From Flavobacteriaceae bacterium (GTDB lineage Bacteria; Bacteroidota; Bacteroidia; Flavobacteriales; Weeksellaceae), in the NCBI GenBank assembly GCA_030538275.1, contig JAUNUH010000007.1:62001-126000 (forward strand): 64,000 nt of DNA, read 5' to 3'. Both the position numbers and the translations under genes were made by a program. The notes beneath the pieces are model-generated. The model did not search any database, had not been told where the DNA came from, and was given only the letters and a program-made list of their open reading frames with translations. Numbering within the stretch: position 1 is the first letter of the stretch; each line of letters starts with the position of its first letter. Positions 12,041-47,007 of the stretch are shown here, piece after piece.

Positions 12041-12132
12041 TTTTAGGAGCCGGGAACCTGCCTTTCACTGCAATCTTTTGCTTTTCCTTATATGGAAGAA
12101 AAGCAAAAGGATTTCCGTTACAGTCAGGGCTA
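12041..12132. repeat. Dispersed flavobacterial intergenic repeat (palindromic)
   Basis: Starts TTTTAGGAGCCGGGAACCTG and ends AGTCAGGGCTAG. In the middle is a 12-bp hairpin, CTTTTGCTTTTC with GAAAAGCAAAAG. Related sequence occurs on the minus strand at 42500-42665 (TTTAGGAGCCGGGAA ... GCATCGGGGCTGGG) and partly at 38441-38500. Elements of this type recur between genes in Flavobacteriia. The rest of the gap to 12503 is A/T-rich and contains no gene I can support. Confidence 0.6.
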
Positions 12133-12503
12133 GTTACAATTCGGATTTTACAAAATAGTTTCAACACATAAAGCACATCAGTTGAGTCTCTCTGCGTGAA
12201 AATAATAGTTCACTTTAGTTTTTCATCTTTGATGAAAATTGATGTGCACTTATGAAAACGCATGATATGCAACTTGCCCTCATGTGCTTTTTGTGTAAAA
12301 AACAGCAAAACCGAGCTTCAAAAAAACTTTTATTGCGCCAGTTTTATAGGTTTTTACGGGCGCTTCACGCTGCGAGGAATGCGAATATCAAAAAATCCCA
12401 GTTTTTTTCAAAAAAGTCCTATTTTCTGATTTATATCATCTATAGTTTTGTCTAACTGATTTATTAATACCTAATTAATGAATTATTTATTCAAAAAGAA
12501 TTG

Positions 12504-46726: not shown

Positions 46727-46756
46727 AAAAAAAAGCACCTCTTTTGGGGAGGTGCT
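46727..46756 (-). terminator. Strong intrinsic terminator in the leader of the RNA-repair locus (candidate attenuator)
   Basis: Perfect 8-bp stem AGCACCTC (46756-46749) / GAGGTGCT (46741-46734), 7-base loop, then T8 on the minus strand. No long gene ends here on that strand, only the 39-codon ORF 25 bases upstream. GAGGTG at 46809-46804, inside that ORF, can pair with the terminator's CACCTC (46754-46749) and would then prevent its formation. Confidence 0.85.
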
Positions 46757-46781
46757 GCAGTTTTTTTCCATCTCAGTTTCA

Positions 46782-46901
46782 TCAACTGAATGCCAGGTAC
46801 AGCCACCTCTGAAAGTTTTTACGTCCATAAAAATTTGCCTCTAAACACTGCGGATCTTGCATCCATTCCGTTTTGCTTGATATATGTCGTGTATTTTGCA
46901 T
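46782..46901 (-). CDS. 39-codon ORF, possible leader peptide
   Basis: Starts ATG at 46901 about 70 bases after a predicted promoter and ends 25 bases before the strong terminator. The peptide starts MQNTRHISSKTEWMQDPQCL and continues EANFYGRKNFQRWLYLAFS. The second half is dense in Asn, Phe, Tyr, Trp and Leu (N23-F24-Y25, N29-F30, W33-L34-Y35). Codons 31-33 overlap the GAGGTG segment able to pair with the terminator. The position and composition fit a translation-coupled attenuator sensing Asn/Phe/Tyr tRNAs. It may instead be a chance ORF on an sRNA. Confidence 0.4.
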   Translation of the reverse strand: MQNTRHISSKTEWMQDPQCLEANFYGRKNFQRWLYLAFS

Positions 46902-46975
46902 TTTTTGAATTTTATTATTTGTTATTATCGAATCAGCATGCGATGGCAAACTTTTTTCGGTATCAATTTCGGTGG

Positions 46976-47007
46976 CAAAGTAAAAACGAATTTTTCAATC
47001 TAACAAA
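46976..47007 (-). promoter_or_regulatory. Promoter of the RNA-repair locus leader
   Basis: TACTTTG (46982-46976) matches the Bacteroidetes -7 box with a TTTG (47007-47004) 21 bases upstream as -33. Predicted transcription on the minus strand starts near 46970. Confidence 0.55.

Follow-up and report, generated by a model that had tools for sequence, protein, structure and literature searches.

The short leader ahead of a tRNA and RNA-repair operon in this Flavobacteriaceae genome is probably, to judge from its sequence and modelled folds, a ribosome-mediated transcription attenuator, which would act as a general sensor of stalled ribosomes and control a stress operon encoding backup tRNAs and enzymes of RNA repair. 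It lies on the (−) strand of the window (the whole stretch of 64,000 nucleotides that was analysed) and occurs once in the source genome. An earlier note had read this DNA as a ribosome-controlled attenuator before a tRNA/ligase operon, tuned to Asn, Phe, and Tyr codons. The first part is upheld by 125 leaders, whereas the codon tuning is not, because there is no run of such codons, usage is flat, and the arrays behind these leaders hold up to 18 tRNAs. The leader in the window has the following parts.

47121-47071, (−): conserved element GAGAGACAGTCATTT...TTGCGGACAGG, upstream of the promoter (pattern match, G000:C8:109071-109121)
47007-46976, (−): candidate Bacteroidota-type promoter TTTG-N20-TTACTTTG, read from the sequence and recurring in relatives
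46901-46782, (−): leader ORF, 39 codons and a TGA stop, peptide MQNTRHISSKTEWMQDPQCLEANFYGRKNFQRWLYLAFS
46809-46798, (−): R2, 5′ half of the predicted antiterminator, GAGGTGGCTGTA, within the ORF (pairing and folding)
46792-46769, (−): predicted stop-codon hairpin between R2 and R3, with the TGA at 46784-46782 (folding)
46760-46749, (−): R3, 5′ arm of the terminator and 3′ half of the predicted antiterminator (terminator scan, pairing and folding)
46756-46727, (−): intrinsic terminator (R3:R4), 8-bp stem AGCACCTC-loop-GAGGTGCT and T8 (terminator scan)

Leader layout in the window and its relatives

The ORF agrees in length with the earlier description, which had also placed N23-F24-Y25 correctly, but it is not rich in Asn, Phe, and Tyr, as these residues number 3, 3, and 2 of 39, below Gln with 4. 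A sigma-70 scan gave no promoter at the leader start, and the good promoter that had been claimed there survives only as the Bacteroidota-type candidate, which was assigned from the Bacteroidota promoter consensus and is shared with relatives. The upstream element, situated 5′ of this promoter, is laid out as GAGAGACAG, a hairpin, and GGACAGG, and 123 of 128 loci carry GAGAGACAG at their leader.

Ligase homologues were detected in 31 of 197 genomes of the family, and a further scan provided 80 loci, mostly of Chryseobacterium, with a few from Flavobacterium and unassigned Flavobacteriia. Inspection of 128 loci yielded leaders from 123, to which two Flavobacterium leaders were added (125), and L305 and L307 were included for the analysis of amino-acid usage (127). 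One locus stands outside the 123 because its GAGAGACAG match lies elsewhere, the leader itself being present (L133). Three were left out because their contigs are cut inside the locus (L146, L159, and L177) and one because it has no leader beside the ligase (L186), and L306 was not counted because its frame changes after KRCLY and the ORF was not recovered. Duplicate loci are many; most statistics use unique peptides (98, in later sets 100) or unique segments, and where 113, 125, or 127 leaders are counted, the duplicates are among them.

The 125 leaders, which come from the family of the source genome and from Flavobacterium, share a layout of short ORF, R2, hairpin near the stop, terminator, and tRNAs with RNA-repair genes, and both the ORF and the pairing, whose conservation the earlier note had asked about, recur among them with different sequences. 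Measured from the last base of the stop codon, R2 starts 18-30 nt upstream (at 27 nt in 92 of the 125) and the R3 segment starts 20-32 nt downstream. The T-run is followed by the first tRNA within 10 nt in 99 of the 125, with a median of 2 nt, which leaves no room for another promoter there. Among 113 leaders with AGGTGCTT, the distance from ATG to R2 is a multiple of three in 111 (90, 99, 102, 105, 108, or 111 nt) and 106 nt in two; the presence of the ORF in 125 leaders and these in-frame distances suggest that it is translated. Codon-position variability in the relatives' leaders is nearly flat (0.355, 0.327, and 0.411), suggesting that the reading frame and the length class are kept and that the peptide sequence is hardly conserved. 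In L113 and L120, R2 lies in another frame and the ORF continues without interruption to a stop close to the normal position, the peptides ending in DKKVLIYVGLS and DEKVLIYVGLS, respectively, rather than in KRCLY... In L050, L051, L053, and other leaders of 38 amino acids, the Trp codon after R2 is replaced by TAG, the ORF is shorter, and R2 and the terminator are kept.

The predicted antiterminator, the terminator, and the proposed switch

The terminator with T8 was recovered by the scan where it had been reported, as were the complementary segments GAGGTG (46809-46804) and CACCTC (46754-46749). In the window, the R2:R3 pairing extends to ~10-11 bp with one bulged G, GAGGTG(G)CTGTA with TGCAGCACCTC, at −15.5 kcal/mol, and comparison with 1000 dinucleotide shuffles of the ORF tail gives p=0.044 for this duplex. 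For the R2-R3 segment, the folding energy is −21.2 kcal/mol, with z=−2.9, a value biased by ends that were chosen to match. The inner spacer alone, whose ends were not so chosen, gives z=−1.77 in the window and a mean of −1.95 over 70 unique spacers, and the fold of the whole window leader is ordinary (z=−1.13). Among the relatives, each of the 77 unique segments folds into R2:R3 enclosing an inner hairpin close to the stop codon, with a mean z of −3.8 against dinucleotide shuffles that is likewise biased by the choice of complementary ends. Taken singly, the duplexes are weak against shuffled ORF tails (p 0.018-0.15 in 14 leaders). The pairing cores change together between lineages, as AGGTGC/GC[AG]CCT, AGGCGC/GCGCCT (L179), and AAGGAGAT/ATCTCCTT (L107/L108). 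Enclosure of the stop codon by a hairpin was rejected as evidence, since it occurs in 70 of 70 real cases and also in ~0.90 of shuffles. The R2-R3-R4 pattern was found in 32 of 296 genomes of the order, at one site each, and its reversed control gave 0; the window misses the strict pattern because its R2 reads AGGTGG.

In 11 leaders, R2:R3 with the inner hairpin has a computed energy of −14.5 to −21.4 kcal/mol, and the terminator one of −12.7 to −16.3 kcal/mol. For modelled transcripts ending at R3, the probability of R2:R3 is 0.82-0.98 in 13 of 14 leaders. Once R4 is made, the terminator dominates at equilibrium in 12 of the 14, so that kinetic control would be needed. This predicted behaviour with and without R4 would be that expected of a kinetically decided attenuator. 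The exception is L179, in which R2 pairs upstream (P=0.74), and this is also the sole leader with a predicted protector helix sequestering untranslated R2, none being predicted in 13 of 14. An antiterminator and a terminator that exclude each other are thus predicted in silico, both by the 77 segments and by the pair probabilities, and an intrinsic terminator stands between the ORF and the structural genes, as found by the scan in the window and as R3 with a T-run in 125 of 125 leaders.

In the proposed switch, a ribosome would translate the short ORF at the same time as RNA polymerase transcribes the leader. During smooth translation, the ribosome at the stop codon would melt the stop-codon hairpin and separate R2 from R3, and with R2 kept off R3, the R3:R4 terminator would form and transcription would stop just before the first tRNA. 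A stall within the first ~26 codons, caused by a cut, uncharged, or depleted tRNA, would leave R2 and the stop-codon hairpin free; R2:R3 would then form before R4 emerges, and the tRNAs, the ligase, and the partner genes would be transcribed. Given the size of the ribosome footprint, a ribosome that has reached the stop codon or its vicinity would occupy the stretch between R2 and R3, and one stalled at least ~13 nt upstream of R2 would leave both free.

The trp, his, and leu attenuators similarly combine a translated short ORF with an antiterminator and an intrinsic terminator that exclude each other, and they are turned on by a ribosome stall. The present leader differs from them in having no single-codon run and in its output of tRNAs and RNA-repair proteins. 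Unlike in the trp type, R2 is upstream of the stop codon and the stop-codon hairpin is nested in the antiterminator, and the protector helix of the trp/his type is predicted in only one of the 14 leaders folded. The attenuators described so far each respond, to our knowledge, to one amino acid or drug. Rfam gave no match to a T-box riboswitch in the window at the gathering threshold or in L032:4300-7520 at E<=5, and no family for the leader in either stretch. Elsewhere in the window, a Flavo-1 RNA (RF01705) was matched at 12050-12135 (−) with 68 bits.

The downstream operon and its nearest precedents

Behind the terminator, the following features were annotated.

46675-46600, (−): tRNA-Asn(GTT), an extra copy, with a separate housekeeping copy in the genome (tRNA scan)
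46587-46579, (−): CTGTCTCTC, which forms the loop of a small hairpin lying between tRNA-Asn and tRNA-Phe and is exactly complementary to GAGAGACAG of the upstream element
46530-46457, (−): tRNA-Phe(GAA), an extra copy, with a separate housekeeping copy in the genome (tRNA scan)
46402-45917, (−): YkuK-like RNase H-fold protein (PF04308)
45847-44846, (−): T4 Rnl2-type RNA ligase (PF09414 and PF18043)
44838-44527, (−): HIRAN-domain protein (PF08797)
44289-44239, (−): partial tRNA match, probable array remnant (29.3 bits)
43811-42714, (−): SPFH/Band 7 protein, with a homologue near 26 of 125 leaders

The two tRNAs are those that had been named as lying just downstream. Arrays behind the leader comprise 1 to 18 tRNAs of many isotypes, with a peak at 13-16 (ARAGORN, 125 loci), and the array of the window appears to be a reduced one, in which two tRNAs and the partial tRNA remain. 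The source genome has 32 other tRNAs, including Asn-GTT and Phe-GAA, and a Chryseobacterium genome (G158) has 60 others that cover all anticodons of its array. The array tRNAs are redundant with the housekeeping set in both genomes checked. They diverge widely from the housekeeping tRNAs, with several changes in the anticodon loop (Ile, Pro, Glu, Cys, Tyr, Thr, Leu, and Gln). The tRNA-Thr(TGT) in the array of L032 has AA at positions 32-33 rather than the usual U33 and may not be a normal elongator. In many arrays, CTGTCTCTC forms the anticodon loop of tRNA-Asp (with U37) or a small hairpin before tRNA-Pro.

Partner genes near the 125 leaders encode an Rnl2-type ligase (106), cREC (103), an RNase T exonuclease (102), and a metallophosphatase (88), these counts being biased because homology to the ligase or to YkuK was the basis on which most loci were chosen. 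An RNA ligase together with such predicted end-processing partners would make this an RNA-repair operon. In one genome (G360), the leader and the ligase are tens of kilobases apart. In the available part of PMC7824862, cREC and Rnl2 are linked to the repair of cut RNA. The systems described there have the same protein partners, whereas that part of the paper describes no attenuator or leader.

The nearest precedent found for the array is the trn operon of Anabaena PCC 7120, which, according to PMC10272220, is a silent array of 26 redundant tRNAs that is turned on under translational stress. It resembles the present arrays in its redundancy with the housekeeping set, but it is repressed by the RHH repressor TrcR, and the main text mentions no attenuator or leader; the operon in the window also has ligase and YkuK genes. 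A second likeness is to phages, whose extra tRNAs with altered anticodon loops have been proposed to escape anticodon nucleases and to replace the host tRNAs that these cleave (PMC10264068, available part). The changed anticodon loops of the array tRNAs resemble that pattern, and by analogy these tRNAs may be resistant to nucleases, although here they are found in bacterial chromosomes behind a leader that is predicted to sense stalls. A literature search listed no paper on the leader or the array, and the gene neighbourhood may have been published before.

The likely signal and its alternatives

The part of the ORF in which a stall would free R2 is the following.

46898-46821, (−): predicted sensing zone, codons 2-27, with 19 of 20 amino acids (without Val); its edge was set by assuming that the ribosome footprint extends to +13 nt from the A-site codon

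Since the ORF uses nearly all amino acids about evenly, it should respond to the loss of most tRNA species rather than of one, and a stall at nearly any codon is the more likely signal. A stronger version, to which we would give somewhat less than an even chance, is that the ORF has been selected to contain codons of essentially every amino acid, so that the loss of any tRNA would open a spare, possibly nuclease-resistant tRNA set along with the mending enzymes. The 19 amino acids in the 26 codons of the window zone give P=1.5e-4 under a null of proteome composition and 0.0027 under one of uniform composition. Ten lineages jointly gave P=7.5e-5 and 0.22, respectively, and P=0.0038 and 0.60 when the window was left out. 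These tests indicate that usage is flattened and that there is no regulatory run, but that the window alone is extreme. Of 98 unique peptides, 34 contain all 20 amino acids, many of them from Chryseobacterium, and 33, 23, and 8 contain 19, 18, and 17. Nearly all of these leaders include the rare residues Cys (99%) and His (98%), and the common residues Ala and Thr are found in just 76% and 70%. No amino acid is enriched in the window ORF, and the longest homo-run among 127 leaders is 2. At the other extreme, the zone of L190 contains just 13 amino acids, and Trp, which just 5% of 88 RCLY-type leaders have in the zone, is nearly always absent from it except in the window. At L305, the leader covers all 20 amino acids, R2 and the terminator are intact, phosphoesterase and SPFH genes follow, and no tRNA array was detected, which favours a general sensor.

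It is possible, though rather unlikely, that the leader senses slow or absent translation as such, due to ribosome-targeting drugs or poor initiation, and that its amino-acid make-up is irrelevant. An untranslated leader is indeed predicted to antiterminate, as R2 pairs upstream in only one of 14, and the coverage without the window is no better than that of uniform composition. The Anabaena trn operon responds to translation inhibitors (PMC10272220). This explanation is at odds with the flattening of usage relative to proteins over the ten lineages, with the extreme value of the window, and with the near-constant presence of the rare Cys and His.

The switch could also be set through the upstream GAGAGACAG, or through its array complement CTGTCTC, by an RNA or a protein, with the ORF left in a secondary role. 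The recurrence of the element at the leaders and of the complement in many arrays, that of the window included, would fit such a factor, which we nevertheless consider improbable because the element is located before the apparent leader promoter and the leader could be explained by R2:R3 without it.

A classical amino-acid-specific attenuator, in which the ribosome would stall at the Asn, Phe, or Tyr codons matching the two downstream tRNAs, is very improbable. N23-F24-Y25 does fall inside the zone in which a stall would free R2, with tRNA-Asn and tRNA-Phe downstream, and array isotypes are missing from their own leader in only 15 of 1035 cases, compared to 41 when permuted (without Trp, 2 of 982 compared to 25; unique leaders). 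However, N, F, and Y show neither enrichment nor a run, and the same switch is found in relatives with broad arrays and broad leaders, and at L305 with no detected array. The match between array and leader isotypes, strong by permutation, is not established under phylogenetic control with independent pairs and a YkuK tree that held 92 of 100 unique-leader loci; tree pairs gave 0.9 same and 0 opposite of 7 for Met and 1.3 same and 0.2 opposite of 4 for Thr. Within Chryseobacterium, there was no sign of amino-acid compensation (P=0.26). Finally, that the terminator merely closes an unrelated short peptide-encoding transcript, the tRNAs having their own promoter, is hardly credible despite the short ORF with its own apparent promoter, given the ~2 nt between T-run and first tRNA at most loci and the retention of R2:R3 despite changing sequence.

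If the leader is a pan-amino-acid attenuator, a single RNA device would monitor the complete tRNA pool of the cell. By sampling almost the entire code, such a leader would show that damage to any tRNA can be sensed by one RNA switch, and it would explain how silent chromosomal tRNA arrays stay off until they are needed. The role of redundant bacterial tRNA arrays and of Rnl2-type ligases would thereby become testable through single-codon changes in ~120 bases.
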